The notes beneath the pieces were generated by a model that did no database searches, was not told where the DNA came from, and worked only from the letters and a program-made list of their open reading frames with translations. Shown one piece after another: positions 16,173-58,067 of a stretch of DNA of 64,000 nucleotides; positions within the stretch are counted from its first letter, which is position 1, and every line of letters begins with the position of its first letter. Source of the stretch: Halorussus salilacus (GTDB lineage: Archaea; Halobacteriota; Halobacteria; Halobacteriales; Haladaptataceae); assembly GCF_024138125.1 (NCBI RefSeq), contig NZ_CP099993.1:1364001-1428000 (forward strand), in the 5' to 3' direction. The position numbers and the translations under genes are program-made.

Positions 16173-16295
16173 GGGACTGAAAGGGGCCGGGCGCTCGCGT
16201 TCATGTAGTCGCCTCAGCGACCCCTATTCGGCGCGGGTTGTGCGGAGAGCGCCGAATATGTCGCTGAGCGACCGCGAGCGCCCGGGGGCTTTCGA
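16173..16295. repeat. Long stem-loop repeat, copy 1
   Basis: It begins GGGACTGAAAGGGGCC and ends GGGGGCTTTCGAG. Outer arms GGGCGCTCGCG/CGCGAGCGCCC and inner arms GTCGCCTCAGCGAC/GTCGCTGAGCGAC with TATTCGGCG/CGCCGAATA form a long imperfect hairpin. Four other copies in the window share the end motifs, in one or the other orientation. Confidence 0.75.
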
Positions 16296-32514: not shown

Positions 32515-33390
32515 ATGGCGAACGTATACTACCACTACCCCGACGATAAGCAGTTCTCCTTGGATTTCGTTAACCCAAATCCGGGAAAGATCGTCGAGCG
32601 AATCGTTAATTATGACGGTGACGTTGCCGTCAAAGTGTTAGAATACGACCTGGACCAGCATTTCTACGTTGTATATACGACCCGTGTTGGTGGCGGTGCA
32701 GTGAAGGATCTCGAACTAGATTTGAGGGAGAGCATCGAGTCGATGGGTCAGGATAACGGGACGATTGTCTCCCGACTCCTCGAAATCTACGAATCTCTTA
32801 TCGAGGAAAATGAAAATGAAGAAGGTGTACCGGTCGAGGCCTACAAGGACATCGGCATCGACGAGCTTCCAGATGCCCTCGATCGGACAGATTGGGATGA
32901 AACGGCGACTGAAGTTGCAGGCCGATTAGCTTCGAATCTTATATTGAAGCATGCGTTGCCGAACGCCAACCACCGGACTGCTGTCGCTATGATACAGTTC
33001 TATCTTCGTCGTGTCGATTCCGACTTCTCGATGCCGAAAACAGCTGTCGAAATCGAACCTGAGGTCTACGACTGGCGTGAGTGGGTGAACAGCTATATCA
33101 ACGAATCCAAACGTCTGTTGACGATCAGACGGAAGAACGTGAAGTTCAAATACGTTCGTGAACTCGGAGGTACGACGTTAGTCCGAAAACACGATGTCCG
33201 TATCCCCCTTTCAGCCTACGAACTGGACATGCCGCCGAGTAGAGCAAAAAAGAGATACACAGAAAAGCACGAACGACTCTGGATAGAATTCGTCGAAGAG
33301 GCGGTCGAACGAGCCGGTAAACCGGAACTCAAAGAGCGCGCGGGAGTAACCAAGCCGGAATTTGCGGAGGAAATCCGTAGTCTCGACTGA
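32515..33390 (+). CDS. Doc/Fic-like domain protein, probable horizontal acquisition
   Basis: The 291-residue protein contains HALPNANHRTAVAMIQFYLRR (from His146), which matches the Doc/Fic catalytic loop H-x-F-x-[DN]-A/G-N-K-R-T-A with His where Doc has Lys. Fic proteins AMPylate targets; Doc phosphorylates EF-Tu. The flanking N-terminal 120 residues and C-terminal 110 residues were not recognised. Codon use is much more AT-rich than in the adjacent genes. A small reverse frame ends 3 bases beyond its stop. Toxicity is inference. Confidence 0.6.
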   Translation: MANVYYHYPDDKQFSLDFVNPNPGKIVERIVNYDGDVAVKVLEYDLDQHFYVVYTTRVGGGAVKDLELDLRESIESMGQDNGTIVSRLLEIYESLIEENENEEGVPVEAYKDIGIDELPDALDRTDWDETATEVAGRLASNLILKHALPNANHRTAVAMIQFYLRRVDSDFSMPKTAVEIEPEVYDWREWVNSYINESKRLLTIRRKNVKFKYVRELGGTTLVRKHDVRIPLSAYELDMPPSRAKKRYTEKHERLWIEFVEEAVERAGKPELKERAGVTKPEFAEEIRSLD

Positions 33391-49636: not shown

Positions 49637-50647
49637 CTACTCGAACACCGGATGCGTCGCCCGGACCTCCTCGATCAACTCCACCACGCCCTCGTCGGCG
49701 TCCCCGTCGGGGGTCACCGGGCGCTTGCCGTCGAAGGTCTCGTGGACCTCCGCGACGCTCTCGGCCAGCGTGTCCAGCCCGTAGCCGCCTTCGAGGACGA
49801 ACCCGAGCGCGGCGTCGATGTCGTCGGCGAGGTCCCGCACGCGCGCGGTCAACATCCCGTAACCGTCGGTCGAGACCCGCATCCGGGAGATGGGGTCGTG
49901 GCGGTGGGCGTCGAACCCCGCGCTCACGAGCAGTAGGTCCGGGTCGAACTCGCGAGTCGCTGGCGCGACGAGGTCGTCGAAGGCGTCCCGATACTCGGGG
50001 TCGCCCGCGCCCGCCGGGAGCGGGACGTTGAGGGTCGTTCCCTCGCCCGGGCCCTCGCCGGTCTCCTCGATGTCACCGGTGCCCGGATACAGGCCCTGCT
50101 CGTGGGTCGAGGCGTAGAACACGTCGTCGGCGTCGTAGAAGATGTCCTGCGTGCCGTTGCCGTGGTGGACGTCCCAGTCGAAGACCGCGACCCGCGAGAC
50201 CTCGCGCTCGGCGATGGCGCTACGGGCCGCGACCGCGACGTTGTTGAAGAAGCAAAAGCCCATCGCGTCGTCGAAGACCGCGTGGTGACCCGGCGGCCGC
50301 CCGAGCGAGAAGGGCGTCTCGCGGCCGTCGGCACCGTCGAGCGCGGTCTCGGCCGCCCACTCGGCGAGCCCCGCCGAGCGCAGGGCGGCGTCCCACGTCG
50401 CCTCGACCGCGACGGTGTCGGGGTCCCAGTTGCCGCCGCCCGACTCGCAGAACTCCCGGAACTCCGCGACGTAGTCGGCGTCGTGGACCGCCTCGACCGC
50501 GTCGGGGACCGCTGGGTCGGCCTCGACGTACTCGACGCCGTGCTTGCGCGCGAGTCCCTCTCGGATGGCCCGCAGGCGGTCGGGGTTCTCGGGGTGGCGC
50601 CCGCCGGTGTCGTGGGCGAGACACTCCTCGCTGTAGCCGAACTTCAT
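49637..50647 (-). CDS. Histone deacetylase-fold protein (class II HDAC/acetylpolyamine amidohydrolase family)
   Basis: The 336-residue protein has SLGRPPGHHAVFDDAMGFCFFNNVAVAA (active-site His pair), AVFDWDVHHGNGTQDIFYDADDVFYASTHE (zinc Asp/His), VSAGFDAHRHDPISRM (zinc Asp) and a late EGGYGLDTLAESV. All zinc ligands are present, so it should be an active deacetylase. Its start overlaps the histone gene stop by 4 bases, a tight operon. Substrates may be histone or other acetyl-lysines, or acetylpolyamines. Confidence 0.92.
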   Translation of the reverse strand: MKFGYSEECLAHDTGGRHPENPDRLRAIREGLARKHGVEYVEADPAVPDAVEAVHDADYVAEFREFCESGGGNWDPDTVAVEATWDAALRSAGLAEWAAETALDGADGRETPFSLGRPPGHHAVFDDAMGFCFFNNVAVAARSAIAEREVSRVAVFDWDVHHGNGTQDIFYDADDVFYASTHEQGLYPGTGDIEETGEGPGEGTTLNVPLPAGAGDPEYRDAFDDLVAPATREFDPDLLLVSAGFDAHRHDPISRMRVSTDGYGMLTARVRDLADDIDAALGFVLEGGYGLDTLAESVAEVHETFDGKRPVTPDGDADEGVVELIEEVRATHPVFE

Positions 50648-51075
50648 TCGAACAGTTTGAAGTACGTCTCGATGTCCTCGGCCTTAACGGTTCGCCGGTC
50701 GGCGTGGCGCGCGAGGATGGCCGCAGCGCGGGCGACGTTGTCGGCGTAGTCTTCGAGGATGTCGGCCAGCGCGATGCGGGCGTCCATCGCCACGCGGTAG
50801 TCGTCGGCGATGTCGAGGCGCGCGATGCGGTCGACCGGCGCGACCGGGAGTTCGAGGTCGGTCTTGTCGACGACCTGCTCGACGCCGAAGTCGCCGCTCA
50901 TCAGGGTCTTGCGCCCGTCGGCGCTCGCCTGCTCGGCGGCGTCGACCGCGAGTTCGGCTCCGTGGCGCTGGATGCGCCGGGCCAACTCCTCGGCGGCGTC
51001 GGCGCTGACCCGGAGGTCCCCCGCGTTCCGTCGGATGATGGTATCGACAGGTGCAAACGGCAGCTCGACGCTCAT
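50644..51075 (-). CDS. Archaeal histone doublet (two histone folds)
   Basis: The 143-residue protein carries two histone folds: VELPFAPVDTIIRRNAGDLRVSADAAEELARRIQRHGAEL (residues about 1-66) and LELPVAPVDRIARLDIADDYRVAMDARIALADILEDYADNVARAA (about 73-143). Halophilic histones are typically such fused pairs and very acidic. It binds DNA or acts as a regulator. It precedes the HDAC-fold gene with a 4-base overlap, so both are one transcript. An RPA-like gene lies 254 bases upstream on the same strand. Confidence 0.93.
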   Translation of the reverse strand: MSVELPFAPVDTIIRRNAGDLRVSADAAEELARRIQRHGAELAVDAAEQASADGRKTLMSGDFGVEQVVDKTDLELPVAPVDRIARLDIADDYRVAMDARIALADILEDYADNVARAAAILARHADRRTVKAEDIETYFKLFE

Positions 51076-51188
51076 ACCCAAATCCGGGAATCTCGCTCCC
51101 TTAGTTCTTTCCGTAGCGGTTTTGCGGCCGCCTGCGGCGTTTTCGATCCGCCAGCAGGCCGAAACGTCTCGCACGACTATCCCGCGAG

Positions 51189-51290
51189 ATGGGAGAACAC
51201 GAGCGAGACCCCACGAGGGCGAGCGAAAAGGGAGAGGCCGACGAGCAGAACCCCGACAACCACCGCGACGAGGAGCCGTTCCGGAGCTAG
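51189..51290 (+). CDS. Possible 33-residue hydrophilic peptide
   Basis: ATG at 51189 opens the frame MGEHERDPTRASEKGEADEQ and ends PFRS. It is highly charged with halophile-type composition and sits alone in the 254-base gap between the histone and RPA genes on the opposite strand. There is no clear promoter. It may be chance. Confidence 0.25.
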   Translation: MGEHERDPTRASEKGEADEQNPDNHRDEEPFRS

Positions 51291-51329
51291 CGGGGGCGTT
51301 CGGACCGGAGCCTCCGTTTCGTCGCGCGC

Positions 51330-52787
51330 TCAGAACACGTCTTCTGCGTCGAGGGTGCCGTCGCGGAGCTGGCCGCGCGCGGTGACCTTCTCGCCGAGGG
51401 TCACGTCTGCGCTCGCCTCGACGCTGACCGTCTGCTCGCCGTCGTCGAGGATGATGGGGTCGCCCGCCTGGACGACGGTTCCCGTGAACTCCACGAACTC
51501 GGCGGCGTCGGCCTCGTCGGCGCTCGCGCCGTTCGCGCTCGCACCACCGGCGTCGGCGCTCCCGGCGTCACCCGCCGCCGAGTCTCCGTCGCCGCCGAAC
51601 GAGTCGAGGCCGGTGGTACCGGTCTCGGCGTCGGCGCTCGAACCGCCGCTCCGAGTTCCGCCCGCGGGCGCGTCGGCCTCGCCGAGGACCGTCACGGTGG
51701 ACTGCCAGCCAGCCGAGCCCTCGATGTCGTCCTCCCAGCCGTCCTGAATCTCGACGTCGGCCAACTGGACCTCGTCGCCCGGTGCGACCTCGGTGTCGGC
51801 CTTCTCGCCCCAGAGCGCGACCCGGAGGTCGCCGGTCTCGTCCTGAACCCGGATGTTCCGGACCTGCCCCTCCGAGCCGTCGTCGCGGTCGAAGGTGCGC
51901 TTGGGGTCGGTAGAGCGCACGACGCCGCCGATGTCGACCTGATCGCCGATGTCGAGGTCGGCGATGTCGGCGGTCTCGGGGACGTACTCGATGTCCTCCT
52001 CGATCTCCTCGACCGCGCCGCGGTTGCCGACGTGGAGTTCGAGGTCGCCGTCGCGCTCGCGGACGTAGCCGTCGACGACCTCCACGGAGACCCCGGCGTC
52101 GAGTTCGTCGGCGCGGTCGGCCTTCTCGTCCCAGAGGGTGACCCGGACCCGACCCGTGGGGTCGCCCACCTTGAGGTTCGAGACCTTCCCCTCCGAGCCG
52201 TCGTCGCGCGAGAACGTCCGGATGGAGTCGGTGTCGAGCACCTTCCCGCGGAGGTTCACGTCCGAGAGCCCCAGCGAGAGGTCCTCGACCCGGTAGGTGT
52301 CTCGAATCTGGATGTCGATGTCGGCCTCGTCGTCGGGTTCGGCCTTGTCGACGTTGACCTCGACGCCGTTGTACCCCTCCTTGGGTCGGCCCGCGATGCG
52401 GAGGTCCTCGCCGACTTCGAGTTCCTCCTCGGCGGCGTCGGCCTGCTTGTCCCAGAAGGTGATGCGGATGGAGCCGGTCTCGTCGGCGACCTCGACGTTG
52501 AGCACGCGGCCGTCCTCGCGCTCGTCGTCGTCGCGCTCGAAGGTCCGCACGTCGCCGATGCCGACGACCTTCGCGAGGAACTTGACCTCCTCCATGCCGG
52601 GTTCGACGTCGGCGACGCTGTCGACCTCGCCCCCTTCCTCGTCGAGCTCGTGGGCGATGAGCATCGCGGCCGTCTCCTCGTCGGCCAGCCCGCCCATCTG
52701 TGCGACTTTCTCCTCGACCGCCTCGCGGAATTCCTCCAGGGAGACCTCAGCGTCGAGGTCGGCGTGAACGTCCTCTATCGCGCCCAT
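51330..52787 (-). CDS. RPA-like single-stranded DNA-binding protein with multiple OB folds
   Basis: The 485-residue protein has three or four OB folds recognisable by repeated strands: VKFLAKVVGIGDVRTFERDD...RVLNVEVADETGSIRITFWDKQAD, VNLRGKVLDTDSIRTFSRDDGSEGKVSNLKVGDPTGRVRVTLWDEKAD, and VDIGGVVRSTDPKRTFDRDDGSEGQVRNIRVQDETGDLRVALWGEKAD. A Gly/Ala/Ser/Asp linker and a last OB-like segment (EFTGTVVQAGDPIILDDGEQTVSVEA) follow. It coats ssDNA during replication and repair. No zinc finger is seen. The start at 52787 gives MGAIEDVHADL. Confidence 0.9.
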   Translation of the reverse strand: MGAIEDVHADLDAEVSLEEFREAVEEKVAQMGGLADEETAAMLIAHELDEEGGEVDSVADVEPGMEEVKFLAKVVGIGDVRTFERDDDEREDGRVLNVEVADETGSIRITFWDKQADAAEEELEVGEDLRIAGRPKEGYNGVEVNVDKAEPDDEADIDIQIRDTYRVEDLSLGLSDVNLRGKVLDTDSIRTFSRDDGSEGKVSNLKVGDPTGRVRVTLWDEKADRADELDAGVSVEVVDGYVRERDGDLELHVGNRGAVEEIEEDIEYVPETADIADLDIGDQVDIGGVVRSTDPKRTFDRDDGSEGQVRNIRVQDETGDLRVALWGEKADTEVAPGDEVQLADVEIQDGWEDDIEGSAGWQSTVTVLGEADAPAGGTRSGGSSADAETGTTGLDSFGGDGDSAAGDAGSADAGGASANGASADEADAAEFVEFTGTVVQAGDPIILDDGEQTVSVEASADVTLGEKVTARGQLRDGTLDAEDVF

Positions 52788-53000
52788 AATCGTATTAGCG
52801 AGCAGGGGTGGCCCGCGCTTAAGCATTGTCTTTGCCGGAAGTGACGGCTCGGGTCGTCGGTATCGGGCGCGTCGGGTGGTTTCGACGCAACGCTCGGTCG
52901 GCGCGTCGGCGCGGCGGTGGGCCCGCGTTCCGGGTGGAGTCGTCGGGGGGTCACGCCCCGAGTTGGTCCCGGCTTCGGATATAAGGGTTCGGGCTGGTCC

Positions 53001-53477
53001 TCACTCGGGGTCGGCCTCGGCGACGGTCGTCGACTCGTCCATCGCCTCGTGGGTGACCGTCACCGACTCGGGGAGGCCGCCCTCGAACTCGAAGGTCGCC
53101 TCGTAGTCGATCTCCGCGATGCAGTCGGCGCACGCTTCGTCCTCGCCCCGGTCCTCGACGCTCTCGACCGTCAGTTCGAGCAGTCCGGACGCGGGGTCGT
53201 AGCCAGCGTCGGCGAGTCGCGCGACGTGGCAGGCGTTCGACCCCGGGATGGTCCCGGTGACGACGACGGATTCGTCCTCGAACTCGACCGTGGCCTCGTT
53301 GGTCTCCGAGCCGCATCCCGCGTCGGTCATCTCGAAGGAGTCGTCGGCCAGTGTCGGTCGGCTCTCGGTCTCCTCGTCGTCGCCCGGAACGTCGTCGGTG
53401 TAGCGGCTGAGACAGCCGCCGAGCGATGCGATTCCGAGGAGTGCGCCGGTTCGTGTGAGCAGCCCGCGTCGGTTCAT
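53001..53477 (-). CDS. Small TAT lipoprotein of unknown function
   Basis: The 158-residue protein begins MNRRGLLTRTGALLGIASLGGC, a twin-arginine-type lipoprotein signal with a lipobox-like LGGC. Conserved-looking cysteines follow (AGCGSE, NACHVA, CADC). They could form disulfides or a metal site. No family was recognised. It is anchored on the outer face by inference. The tRNA-Arg locus begins 134 bases beyond its start, in the opposite direction. Confidence 0.7.
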   Translation of the reverse strand: MNRRGLLTRTGALLGIASLGGCLSRYTDDVPGDDEETESRPTLADDSFEMTDAGCGSETNEATVEFEDESVVVTGTIPGSNACHVARLADAGYDPASGLLELTVESVEDRGEDEACADCIAEIDYEATFEFEGGLPESVTVTHEAMDESTTVAEADPE

Positions 53478-53610
53478 ACGTGTGGGAACGGAGCCCTCTT
53501 TCATAGGTTTCATGGATGGAAAAATGACCGTTTGAGTTATCGTGCGCCCGCTTGCCAGTGGACACTAAGACCGTAACCCCTATTAGTGGAACCGGCCAAC
53601 GTAGAGTTGA

Positions 53611-53683
53611 GTCCTGGTAGGGTAGTGGACTATCCTATTGGCTTGCGGAGCCAGTGACCGGAGTTCAAATCTCCGTCAGGACG
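53611..53683 (+). tRNA. tRNA-Arg (anticodon GCG)
   Basis: The 73-base gene folds as acceptor GTCCTGG/TCAGGAC with discriminator G, D-arm GGGT/ATCC, anticodon stem TTGGC/GCCAG with loop TTGCGGA (anticodon GCG at positions 34-36, reading CGC), variable loop TGAC, and T-arm CGGAG-TTCAAAT-CTCCG. CCA is not encoded. No intron is seen. Its 3' end from GAGTTCAAATCTCC on is the founder sequence of the following tandem array. Confidence 0.92.
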
Positions 53684-54485
53684 TTTTCGCGGCGCAACAA
53701 CGACGAGCGAAGCGAGGAGTCTGCGCCGCGAAGCTCCATCGCGGAGATTTGAGCAGACGAGTCGCACGCCCGGAACGGCCCGCAGGGCCGCACGCCCGGA
53801 CCGTCTCGGCGAGTTCAAATCTCCGTCAGGACGTTTTCACGGAACCGACCCGCGAGAGCCGTCTACGGCTCTCGCACGGTGTGGAGTGAAAACTCCACTG
53901 CGGAGATTTGAGCAGGGAAGTCGCACGCCCGGAAGCGCAACGAAGTGAGCATCCCGGAACGTCTTCACGAGTTCAAATCTCCGTCAGGACGTTTTCACGG
54001 AACCGACCCGCGAGAGCCGTCTACGGCTCTCGCACGGTGTGGAGTGAAAACTCCACTGCGGAGATTTGAGCAGGGAAGTCGCACGCCCGGAAGCGCAACG
54101 AAGTGAGCATCCCGGAACGTCTTCACGAGTTCAAATCTCCGTCAGGACGTTTTCGCGGCGCAACGACGACGAGCGAAGCGAGGAGTCTGCGCCGCGAAGC
54201 TCCATCGCGGAGATTTGAGCAGACGAGTCGCACGCCCGGAACGGCCCGCAGGGCCGCACGCCCGGACCGTCTCGGCGAGTTCAAATCTCCGTCAGGACGT
54301 TTTCGCGGAGCAAGGCCGCGAGAACCCTCTGTGGTTCTCGCACGACTGCGGAGTGAAAACACCACTGCGGAGATTTGAGCAGACGAGTCGCACGCCCGGA
54401 ACGGCCCGCAGGGCCGCACGCCCGGACCGTCTCGGCGAGTTCAAATCTCCGTCAGGACGTTTTCATGGAACCGACCCGCGAGAGC
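53661..54485 (+). repeat. tRNA-Arg 3'-end tandem array (five units plus a partial sixth)
   Basis: A 28-base repeat (starting GAGTTCAAATCTCCGTCAGG) occurs at 53661 (inside the tRNA), 53811, 53969, 54127, 54277 and 54437. It covers the T-arm, 3' acceptor strand, discriminator and five bases of trailer. Unit lengths are 150, 158, 158, 150 and 160. Each complete unit also holds an inverted T-arm core CGGAGATTTGAG at offset 81 or 90-91 (53742, 53901, 54059, 54208, 54368). Between these lie hairpin modules of a few types. The sixth unit breaks off near 54485. There is no gene in this stretch that I would accept. Confidence 0.9.
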
Positions 54486-54598
54486 TATCTCGACGGCTAG
54501 AACGACGAGGACGACGAGGACAGCGACGGGACCCGGACCTCGTTTCTCCGGCGCGTACCGCTCGCACGTCACCGATGAGACCGCGCGGCACCGCAACG

Positions 54599-54733
54599 GC
54601 CACACGCCTCCCCAGCCGATTCCCTCGTTCGCGCCTCCGGCGCGTCACTCGGTCATCCCTCGCGCGCTGGTGGCGCGGCTCAAACCACGAGCCGCGCCAG
54701 CGCGCGCCGGAAGACAAACCGCGTCTTCCGAGC
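54599..54733 (+). repeat. Second dispersed repeat, copy A
   Basis: CCACACGCCTCCCCAGCCGA opens a stretch with CCCTCGCGCGCTGGTGGCGC, CTCAAACCACGAGC and CGGAAGACAAACCGCGTCTT. The same blocks in the same order occur at 60706-60848. Both copies lie beside the GACTGAAA end of a long stem-loop repeat. No protein-coding potential is convincing. Confidence 0.65.
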
Positions 54734-54845
54734 CTGCGGTCGCACCGTCGGACCTGCGGTCCGACGAGCCTGCACTCGCTTCGCTCGCGCAGACGCCGGG
54801 TGGAAGGGTCCACCGGAAACCGGCCGGTGGGAGAGTCAATCGGGC

Positions 54846-55024
54846 GGGACTGAAAGGGGCCGCCCGCTCGCGTACAGTTTAGTCGCCTCTGCGGGCAACT
54901 ATTCGCGGGCCGGACGGTGGTCACGCGAGCGAAGCGAGGGTGACCTCGAAGGAGCATCGCTCCTTCGGTGCGGAGAGGCCCGCGAATATCCCGCAGAGCG
55001 ACCGCGAGCGGGCGGGGGCTTTCG
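54846..55024. repeat. Long stem-loop repeat, copy 4
   Basis: It starts GGGACTGAAAGGGGCCGCCC and ends GGGCGGGGGCTTTCGGGG. Arms GCCCGCTCGCG/CGCGAGCGGGC, AGTCGCCTCTGCGGG/CCCGCAGAGCGAC and CTATTCGCGGGCC/GGCCCGCGAATAT form a long hairpin with a loop containing ACGCGAGCGAAGCGAGG. It has the same orientation as copy 1. Nothing else was seen between 54486 and 55135 apart from this copy and the neighbouring repeat. Confidence 0.75.
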
Positions 55025-55135
55025 GGGACTTCGGCCACGAATCGTGGTGATGTGACGAGCGCCCGCGAAATCTCTCGGTGGGTTCGTCTTTCGTAGTCCC
55101 GAAGACACTTCGCCACGAGCATCCAAGACGAACCC

Positions 55136-55753
55136 ATGAGAGACCACCTCCGGGCGGGAATCGCGGTCTACAACGCCGGGGAGTACCACGCGGCCCACGA
55201 CGCGTGGGAGGCGTTCTGGCTCGACCTCGAATCCGGGACCGACGACGAGCGGTTCCTCCACGGTCTCATCCAGTTCACCGCGGCGGTCTACCACGCCGCG
55301 AACGCGAACTGGGAGGGCGCGCGCGGACTCGCCGAGAGCGGCGCGGGCTACCTCGCCGACCTCCCGGCCGACCACCGCGGGGTGAACGTCGGCGCGGTCC
55401 GGGCGTACCTCCGGGCGGTCGCCGCCGACCCCGAGCACGTCGAGCGCGCTGGCCCGCCGAGGCTGACCCACGAAGGGACGGCGATTATGCCCGAGGACCT
55501 GCGATTCGACGCGGCCGCAATCGCGGCCGGGATTCTGGCCGAGGAGTACGGCTACGACGAGGAAGTGATCGAGCGAGGAGCCGAGTACGCCCGCGCCGAC
55601 CTCGATTCGGGGCGGGCGAACAGCGAGTTCGTGACCTTCGTGATGGACTTCGCGAGGGACGCCGCGAACAGGGGCATCATCTTCCAGCGCCTGCGCCAGC
55701 ACGTCGAGAAGCGCCGCGCGCGCGAGACCGACGTGGACGGCCTGTTCGAGTGA
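55136..55753 (+). CDS. DUF309-domain protein
   Basis: The 205-residue helical protein has the DUF309 signature YNAGEYHAAHDAWEAFWLDLESGTDDERFLHGLIQFTAAVYHAANANWEGARGLAE (conserved H...HE/D-x-WE and GLIQ). A second helical part follows. The function of the family is unknown. It starts at 55136, right after the repeat-rich region, and converges with the epimerase-type gene. Confidence 0.85.
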   Translation: MRDHLRAGIAVYNAGEYHAAHDAWEAFWLDLESGTDDERFLHGLIQFTAAVYHAANANWEGARGLAESGAGYLADLPADHRGVNVGAVRAYLRAVAADPEHVERAGPPRLTHEGTAIMPEDLRFDAAAIAAGILAEEYGYDEEVIERGAEYARADLDSGRANSEFVTFVMDFARDAANRGIIFQRLRQHVEKRRARETDVDGLFE

Positions 55754-55781
55754 GTACTCGTATCGTGACCTGTCCGACGGC

Positions 55782-56543
55782 TTACTCCTCGACTCGGGCG
55801 TCGGCGAACTCCGCGGAGTTGTCCTGTGGGTCGTAGCCCAGTACCTCCCTCGCGCGCTCGATGGAGTAGTACTTGCGGTCGTTGTCGGAGATGCCGTAGA
55901 CGATCTCGTAGTCGTAGTCGGCCTGCAGGCATCGGTCGAAGAGGTGGGCGCAGTCGCGGTGGGAGAGCCACATCGCCTGTCCGCGCTCGTAGCCCTTCGG
56001 CGGGTGACTCTTGGTGAGGTTGCCGATGCGGACGCAGACCACGCTGAGGTCGTGGGCGTCGTGGTAGTACCGACCCAGAATCTCGCCGCTGGCCTTGCTC
56101 ACGCCGTAGAGATTGCTCGGGCGGGGGAGTTCGGTGCCGTCGAGCAGGAAGTCGTCGTGGGGCCGGTAGATGTCGGGTTTGCGCTCGTCGGTCTCGAACG
56201 ACCCGACCGCGTGGTTCGAGGAGGCGAACGCGAACTTCTCGACGCCCGCGTCGACGGCCGCCTCCAGTAGCTTCTGGGTGCCGTCGATGTTGTTGGTCAG
56301 GACGCTGTTCCACGGGGCTTCGGGTCGGGGGTCGCCCGCGAGGTGAACAATCGCGCCGATGCCCTCGACCGCGTCGGCGAGCGCCTCCTCGTCGGTGATG
56401 TCGGCGGCCACGAAGTCGTGGTCGGTGTCGCGGGTCGGAGGGTCGCGGTCGAGCAGTCGCCAGTCGTACTTCTCGGAAAGGTCCGAGAGGATGGCCTGCC
56501 CGACGCGGCCCTCCGCGCCCGTCAGCAGGACTGGGTCGTCCAT
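55782..56543 (-). CDS. azf: Extended SDR/epimerase-family dehydrogenase, probable archaeal glucose-6-phosphate dehydrogenase (Azf)
   Basis: The 253-residue protein has the NAD-binding GAEGRVG near the N-terminus, an Asp at the end of strand 2 (LLDRD) favouring NAD, VHLAGDPRP, ASSNHAVG and the catalytic YGVSK. The length and overall pattern fit the NAD-dependent Azf described in Haloferax, which starts the haloarchaeal oxidative pentose phosphate route. A generic NAD-dependent epimerase/dehydratase remains possible. Confidence 0.65.
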   Translation of the reverse strand: MDDPVLLTGAEGRVGQAILSDLSEKYDWRLLDRDPPTRDTDHDFVAADITDEEALADAVEGIGAIVHLAGDPRPEAPWNSVLTNNIDGTQKLLEAAVDAGVEKFAFASSNHAVGSFETDERKPDIYRPHDDFLLDGTELPRPSNLYGVSKASGEILGRYYHDAHDLSVVCVRIGNLTKSHPPKGYERGQAMWLSHRDCAHLFDRCLQADYDYEIVYGISDNDRKYYSIERAREVLGYDPQDNSAEFADARVEE

Positions 56544-56602
56544 TCACGTAGAGGGACGGATGGGGGCGATAAGTAAGGTGCGATTCGTCCGAGCGCTCGA
56601 CC

Positions 56603-56833
56603 TCAGGACTCCCGGAGTGGGACCAGTTTCTCCCGACCGAGGTTCGCGGCGAACCCCAGCGCGACCACTCCCATGAACGCGAACCAGCCAGCGAGCATCG
56701 TCTCCCCGCCGAGGAACTGCTGGACGCCGTTGTACTCCGCGAGGAGACCGATACCGGAGAGCGCCAGCGTTCCGACGGCGTAGACCGCCACCGCGAGTGT
56801 CTGACTGGCGAGTTCGAAGAGGCCTTCGAGCAT
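56603..56833 (-). CDS. Small two-span membrane protein
   Basis: The 76-residue protein has two hydrophobic helices (LAVAVYAVGTLALSGIGLL; MLAGWFAFMGVVALGFAANL) separated by a polar loop EYNGVQQFLGGET, and a charged end. It resembles small conserved haloarchaeal membrane proteins of unknown role. It is divergent from the 56923 gene, another small membrane protein. Confidence 0.65.
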   Translation of the reverse strand: MLEGLFELASQTLAVAVYAVGTLALSGIGLLAEYNGVQQFLGGETMLAGWFAFMGVVALGFAANLGREKLVPLRES

Positions 56834-56922
56834 TGGTACGGCGAACGAACCGACCGAACATGTACCTTTCGCGTACCCAGCAGTCAGAAACCCTTTTCGG
56901 GGCTCCAGTCGAACCCCGCGAC

Positions 56923-57150
56923 ATGGGACGATACGGAGACGTGAACTACGCGTTCTGGACCAAGTACGGGTTCGCCGCGAGCGTGGCGATGCTCGCGCTC
57001 GGTGCAGGGGCAGAATTCACAGCGACGGCCATGAACGTCTCGCTCCCGGCGTGGGAACACACCCTGTTCGTGGACATGGAGATACTGGGGATTCTCGGGA
57101 TGTTGCTGTTCCCGTTCGTGTTCGGTATCGCACTGCCGCTGACCGAGTAG
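56923..57150 (+). CDS. Small two-span membrane protein
   Basis: The 75-residue protein (MGRYGDVNYAFWTKYGFAAS) has two hydrophobic segments: FAASVAMLALGAGAEF and ILGILGMLLFPFVFGIALPL. It starts at ATG 56923; the longer upstream frame is not coding-like. It is small and conserved-looking, with no assigned function. Confidence 0.65.
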   Translation: MGRYGDVNYAFWTKYGFAASVAMLALGAGAEFTATAMNVSLPAWEHTLFVDMEILGILGMLLFPFVFGIALPLTE

Positions 57151-57297
57151 CGAACGCAACCGAGAGAACGGCCGGATATCGTCTTCAGCGGTCACACGTC
57201 CGATAGTCCCGGCATCGACGTGACCAAAACGCGTGGGCTGGTGTCTTTTCGCGTATCTCCGAAACGTTTCTTTCGGCCCGAGACGCAACACGACCAG

Positions 57298-57864
57298 ATG
57301 GTCCGATATCTCATCTCCGACTTCCATCTCGACCACGGGAATATCATCGACTACTGCGACCGACCGTTCGATTCGGTCGAGGAGATGAACGAGGCGTTAG
57401 TCGAGTCCTGGAACGCCGTCGTGGACTCGGGCGACGAAGTGCTGTACGGCGGCGACCTCACCATCCGAACGTCCGCCGGGGCCCTGTTGGACTGGCTCGA
57501 CGAACTGAACGGTGAGATCGTCTTCCTGCTGGGCAACCACGACGGTACGGTGCTGGAGGGGCTGGACCGGGTCCGGTTCGTCGAGGAGTTCCGGTTCGAG
57601 CACCGAGGGGTCCCGTTCCACGCCGTCCACGACCCGGCAGACGGCCCCTCGAACCCGAAGGGGTGGTTGCTCCACGGCCACCATCACAACAACTGGCCGG
57701 AGCGATTCCCCCTCGTCGACCACGATACTCGACGCGTCAACTTCTCGGCCGAACTGCTGGACTACCGCCCGCTGGCGACCGACAGACTGGTCGACTACCT
57801 GGCCTGCGGCGAGCGGTTCCCCGACAGAGCCGCCGCCGAGCGTGCACTGGAAGCCGCCGACTGA
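57298..57864 (+). CDS. Calcineurin-like metallophosphoesterase
   Basis: The 188-residue protein has the five phosphoesterase blocks: ISDFHLDHGNI (DxH), DEVLYGGDLT (GD), IVFLLGNHDG (GNHD), FHAVHDP (H) and WLLHGHHHNNW (GHxH). It hydrolyses a phosphodiester or phosphomonoester with two metals; the substrate is unknown. ATG at 57298 gives MVRYLISDFH, the normal family start. Confidence 0.88.
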   Translation: MVRYLISDFHLDHGNIIDYCDRPFDSVEEMNEALVESWNAVVDSGDEVLYGGDLTIRTSAGALLDWLDELNGEIVFLLGNHDGTVLEGLDRVRFVEEFRFEHRGVPFHAVHDPADGPSNPKGWLLHGHHHNNWPERFPLVDHDTRRVNFSAELLDYRPLATDRLVDYLACGERFPDRAAAERALEAAD

Positions 57865-58067
57865 GCCGCCCCGAATCGGCCGGTATTGTCGAGGGCTCCA
57901 TCGTCGCACTGTTTTCCGTTTCCGACTCGCGTCTCCGGGCGACAGGGACGCACTCCAGCGGTCGAGCCGCGGGCTCACGAACGTCCACCCACGCCACTGC
58001 GAAATCCGGAGAGCAGGTCGACCCGATTAGAGAACAGGGGACGACCCGTTTCGAGAGCAGGTCGAGT

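Follow-up and report, generated by a model that had tools for sequence, protein, structure and literature searches.

Repeat units bearing the 3′ end of the preceding tRNA in Halobacteriales, and their likeness to the tRNA-linked repeats of Escherichia coli

The array that follows tRNA-Arg(GCG) in the 64-kb stretch of Halorussus salilacus DNA analysed here ('the window') is not a one-off locus, the same arrangement recurring behind many tRNAs in many genera of Halobacteriales. Its units are ordered as F (the tRNA end), A (a trailer palindrome), R, B (a hairpin) and then the next F. Because of this anatomy, the T tracts that follow F and the parallel in E. coli, the array is on balance probably a counterpart, among archaea, of the tRNA-linked repeats (TLRs) known from E. 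coli, with non-coding F-A-R-B units whose F copies would act as extra tRNA-type 3′ ends. To our knowledge TLRs have so far passed for a peculiarity of E. coli and related bacteria, those linked to tRNAs being without known function, and a literature search found no account of archaeal tRNA-linked repeats.

The 28-bp core of the window array, GAGTTCAAATCTCCGTCAGGACGTTTTC, consists of the last 23 bases of tRNA-Arg(GCG) plus TTTTC. As the earlier note had reported, it recurs five more times after its occurrence at the tRNA 3′ end, with all 28 bases identical; the six starts are those of the five units and of the last core in Table 1, and the successive spacings (150, 158, 158, 150 and 160 bp) bear out the 150-160 bp given there. 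Its description of the spacing as gene-free also holds, with no plausible gene between the core copies and no open reading frame in the array. TRF scores the array at 706-799 versus 50-112 for all other repeats of the window. Each of the five units carries, some 80-90 bp past the core, an inverted copy, CGGAGATTTGAGC (R), and a hairpin is located between R and the following core. Unit types are mosaic along the array (A1B1, A2B2, A2B2, A1B1, A3B1), which with five units is the longest among the arrays examined closely. A scan of window positions 50000-58000 with Rfam yields no family matching the array, RtT (RF00391) included, a model that does match E. coli.

Table 1. Features of the array behind tRNA-Arg(GCG), in window coordinates
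Feature	Coordinates	Strand	Composition and remarks
tRNA-Arg(GCG)	53611..53683	+	ARAGORN; Rfam RF00005 52.4 bits; nt 53-73 = F1
Unit 1, 150 bp	53661..53810	+	F1, trailer hairpin A, R 53742-53754, hairpin B 53755-53810 (77.5 bits against model R1, whose training set included this sequence)
Unit 2, 158 bp	53811..53968	+	F, A type 2, R 53901-53913, B type 2
Unit 3, 158 bp	53969..54126	+	identical to unit 2; R 54059-54071
Unit 4, 150 bp	54127..54276	+	near-identical to unit 1; R 54208-54220
Unit 5, 160 bp	54277..54436	+	F, A type 3, R 54368-54380, B type 1
Sixth (last) core	54437..54464	+	F plus TTTTC
Truncated type-2 trailer A remnant after last F	54465..54490	+	without R or B; read directly

The limits of F are sharp. 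Across 168 downstream copies it corresponds to nt 53-73 of the tRNA in front, with 91-100% identity per position, and takes in the T-loop, the 3′ halves of the T-stem and acceptor stem, and the discriminator base. On the left, identity is at background through nt 51, 68% at nt 52 and 96-100% at nt 53-65; on the right it is 91-97% at nt 66-73 and then 63, 65, 52 and 45%, falling to about 36%. Since only nt 54-65 served as seed when the copies were aligned to their own tRNA, the search itself did not impose the right-hand boundary. Past the downstream F the T content at +1 to +3 is 50-71% versus a background of 18%, as at real tRNA ends; the T-rich tracts that follow F2 could have come down from the trailer of the original tRNA. 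One extra T-loop base (such as TTCACAAT or TTCAACAT) is seen in the downstream F of seven loci (L092, L099, L142, L156, L081, L030 and L095), covering several isoacceptors and genera, the tRNA itself being without it.

R is likewise specific to the tRNA, being an inverted copy of about nt 53-64 in which pairing at nt 55-62 reaches 86-100%; its T-stem bases match those of their own tRNA at 3.66 of 5 positions versus 2.38 on shuffling, the largest value in 2000 shuffles being 2.73. It can pair with the preceding F (which for the first unit lies inside the tRNA) or with the following F, and has no partner for the acceptor part of F, nt 66-73. B, on the other hand, has a conserved body, AGTCGCACGCCCGGAA ... 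CGCACGCCCGGACCGTCT, and stem bases that change in step on both sides: among 102 distinct sequences 95.9% of cells are paired, and 117 doubly changed cells compare with 21 on shuffling (0 of 500), counts that are inflated by relatedness and come from an alignment fitted to the model, with slid controls below 55% paired. Pairs almost always change on both sides; G-U intermediates are few, and neither strand is clearly favoured. No recognisable cargo is present in 166 units of 65-283 bp, the longest complete ATG-initiated open reading frame being one of 76 amino acids in a single unit.

When the Rfam tRNA-model hits of the genome were taken with about 1.5 kb downstream of each, 12 of 42 tRNAs had downstream copies by a uniform criterion, with none in the upstream control; the tRNA's own 3′ end recurs downstream of Asn, Ala, Lys, Val, Gly, Tyr, Met, Thr, three Leu isoacceptors, Pro and Arg. 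Conversely, 16 of the best 17 matches in the genome to the B-end motif (0-1 mismatch) are behind a tRNA, the 17th being behind a degenerate piece of tRNA-Glu 35 kb from tRNA-Glu(CTC). R1, a covariance model made from B, finds matches in 170 of 292 Halobacteriales genomes and in 53 of 77 genera; in a sample of 197 genomes taken across the phylum it finds none beyond the order. R1 undercounts, since a haloarchaeon without a match to it (G020) still has copies behind 13 of its 29 tRNAs, again with an upstream control of 0. In a more distant archaeon, G306, 1 of 28 tRNAs has a downstream copy. A perfect 20-nt copy of a tRNA 3′ end stands at +139 behind tRNA-Ala(CGC) in that genome (L271), which is outside the order. 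The exact B-F junction occurs in Halorussus, Haloarcula, Natronomonas, Halorubrum, Natronococcus, Natribaculum, Halorientalis, Halovenus, Halomicrobium and Natronosalvus, among others; a tRNA with the same 3′ end precedes it in 16 of 18 stretches, none having been found within the stretch for the other two. Loci selected solely by a match to B have a detectable tRNA in 84 of 90 cases.

Matches to B without a near tRNA were inspected for an element that had switched to a new tRNA, and no clear foreign F was seen. Two (L094, L078) are behind displaced pieces of tRNA-Glu and two (L083, L163) behind tRNA-like sequence missed by ARAGORN; L088, L168 and L169 are further matches without a near tRNA, and L140 has a decayed F behind tRNA-Arg.

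Comparison of relatives, one of the checks proposed in the earlier note, revealed that unit number behind tRNA-Arg(GCG) differs within the genus, from 0 to 5 across 18 genomes. Behind tRNA-Tyr, units are present in 13 of the 18 congeners, and in several of them the second F has decayed (3-5 mismatches), from which it follows that F is not under absolute constraint. At this tRNA one locus (L202) has a single 160-bp unit and another (L199) none, with flanks about 90% identical and adjoining F exactly in both, so that one complete unit was either acquired or lost, the tRNA 3′ end forming its junction. With such clean presence and absence, and with the range in unit number, one suggestion of the earlier note, a 'self-expanding tRNA-derived repeat', comes close. 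Such turnover would need no more than deletion between directly repeated F copies, unequal exchange that adds units, and import through recombination. Differing B classes occur behind the same tRNA among congeners. B likeness is higher for the same tRNA across genera (0.765) than for different tRNAs in one genome (0.731), which points to lineages that are mostly tRNA-bound and old, and on the same figures rapid spread of a single B type within a genome was rejected. In Natribaculum breve (L123, 197-1768) two tandem tRNA-Asp genes each have their own repeat units behind them, and the tRNA plus its array seems to have been duplicated as a whole.

The E. coli parallel is with a group known since 1978, of which 22 members at ten loci are described; they are stated to be without known function, an earlier claim for the tyrT member having been withdrawn, and the repeated end of 5S-linked members has been suggested as an RNase E site (PMC8144298). 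Behind tyrV of E. coli K-12, copies of the 19-nt tRNA-Tyr end stand at +178, +356 and +534, and each unit, marked by Rfam as RtT, has an inverted GGGGAAGGAT at +77. In the arg and lys operons 18-19-nt end copies are at +98 to +135; the lys units and one of the arg units have an inverted piece with at most one mismatch in ten, which is weaker in the other two arg units. A tRNA-tied inverted piece able to pair with F is present at tyrTV, argVYZQ and lysT (L191, L226, L228), and we know of no report of it in E. coli TLRs. Common to the haloarchaeal units and E. coli TLRs (tyrT/tyrV rttR, RF00391 RtT, and the arg and lys operons) are the position directly behind a tRNA, a unit end identical to the 3′ end of that tRNA and ending at its gene-encoded 3′ end, one to five units per locus about 100-180 bp apart at several loci per genome and, for tyr, lys and some arg units, an inverted partial copy giving a hairpin R-B-F. 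There are also differences: the E. coli end is the last 18-19 nt including CCA, as against nt 53-73, and the archaeal units have another hairpin B, far more isoacceptors and no Rfam match. Some E. coli TLRs, though not of necessity each, are behind 5S genes, whereas no convincing tail copies were found behind either 5S gene of the haloarchaeal genome. Without a match to RF00391 the likeness is one of architecture and not of sequence; by structural hallmarks the haloarchaeal units are built like TLRs, and convergence may be involved.

If the array is such a counterpart, its non-coding units, probably co-transcribed with the tRNA, would be reached by read-through of the tRNA transcript, in which R-B-F would form an enclosing hairpin. 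Each downstream F, together with the R-B-F helix and its T tract, would then give the transcript a further tRNA-type 3′ end at which processing or termination could take place, perhaps with release of RNAs of about 150 nt, as suggested for E. coli RrB. Slippage or recombination involving directly repeated F copies would change unit number without a dedicated recombinase, and units may also be imported from relatives. An archaeal order with TLR architecture behind dozens of isoacceptors, each with its tRNA-specific inverted piece, amounts to many natural replicates, and in tractable haloarchaea sequence rules, turnover among close relatives and RNA products become testable. Should the units be processed RNAs, small RNAs would quite generally arise from pre-tRNA trailers; should they not be, tRNA ends attract a repeat-making process without a name so far. 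The units combine F and R fitted to each of many isoacceptors with a single shared B. A bolder and rather unlikely proposal is that a dedicated process, having acted in both Halobacteriales and enterobacteria, copies a tRNA 3′ piece (T-loop to mature 3′ end) with an inverted partial copy behind almost any isoacceptor, the F-A-R-B units being tRNA-tied RNAs with a switch or processing role that form one class across both domains.

A real, if unlikely, alternative to extra 3′ ends is that the units are DNA palindromes of the REP/BIME sort with no RNA function, neutral or selfish, in which replication template-switching at the palindromes makes and corrects R and B while F slippage changes unit number. 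The alternating nested palindromes with inner hairpins swapped in a mosaic accord with it, as do the decayed F copies of some relatives and a hairpin like B in another intergenic repeat family (below), and the pair changes in B, almost without exception complete and with few G-U intermediates, suit upkeep of a palindrome in the DNA no less well than selection acting on RNA. However, nt 66-73 of F keep their identity to the tRNA even though unpaired with R, and occurrence in dozens of genera with a parallel in E. coli argues for more than drift. REP/BIME sequences are dispersed intergenic palindromes, accompanied in some genomes by a RAYT transposase; the archaeal units are likewise short intergenic palindromes in mosaic arrays but, unlike them, nearly all copies are tied to tRNA 3′ ends and carry tRNA-specific sequence.

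Quite unlikely is the reading of the units as gene-less integrative cassettes, in which a trans-acting tyrosine recombinase crosses over in the T-loop, each insertion duplicating nt 53-73, with B and R as binding or folded parts of att. An F running from T-loop to tRNA 3′ end is the usual att geometry, the presence or absence of a single unit is precise, and replacement is suggested where congeners have differing B classes at the same tRNA. Yet F belongs to the adjacent tRNA, where a T-loop crossover with an element from another tRNA would give a foreign 3′ end, and B likeness follows the tRNA across genera more than the genome. The recombinase would have to serve more than 25 tRNA sequences while always leaving their own 3′ end, and nothing points to one. 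A search of the genome for tyrosine recombinases, as the earlier note had advised, did reveal 4-5, all away from the array, with none inside or beside it. The note's integrase-cassette interpretation is accordingly not supported, given an arrangement found behind about a third of tested tRNAs, units free of cargo and recombinases elsewhere. On similar grounds two related candidates were rejected: remnants of island attachment sites, in view of the regular units of about 150 bp with a shared B and no cargo, and gene cassettes, none of the 166 units having a gene. Haloarchaeal proviruses and islands at tRNA 3′ ends also duplicate the tRNA 3′ end, but have kilobases of cargo and an integrase between the ends, neither being present in the tandem archaeal units. 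Integron cassette arrays similarly have tandem units parted by imperfect palindromes; the archaeal array differs in being without gene cassettes or a nearby integron integrase, and its recurring end is tRNA-derived.

Integrases of tRNA-integrating elements commonly duplicate a tRNA 3′ piece, and as F spans just that piece its extra copies might be spare or decoy attachment sites that draw integrases off the tRNA. This is very improbable. Two of the tyrosine recombinases are in an ordinary island of about 35 kb at tRNA-Glu(CTC) (C1, about 383000-418650; L078, L222, L223), with the repeat unit of tRNA-Glu displaced to its far end behind a degenerate tRNA-Glu copy; the island entered at the tRNA itself, pushing the array 35 kb off and leaving F2 unused. 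Integrating elements also bring their own tRNA end, making any benefit small. Assembly error of a repeat, for which the identity of units 2 and 3 might be cited, is practically negligible, as similar arrays with different units are present in many independent assemblies of many genera, and error could touch only the exact unit number in this genome.

Attention is also drawn to an intergenic motif, GACTGAAAGGGG, with six window matches versus 0.23 expected, exact at 16175, 16995 and 54848 and with one mismatch at 33205, 35200 and 60665. A hairpin like B adjoins it at window 16.9 kb and at C1:2353.5 kb, and B may be a module common to this intergenic repeat family too.
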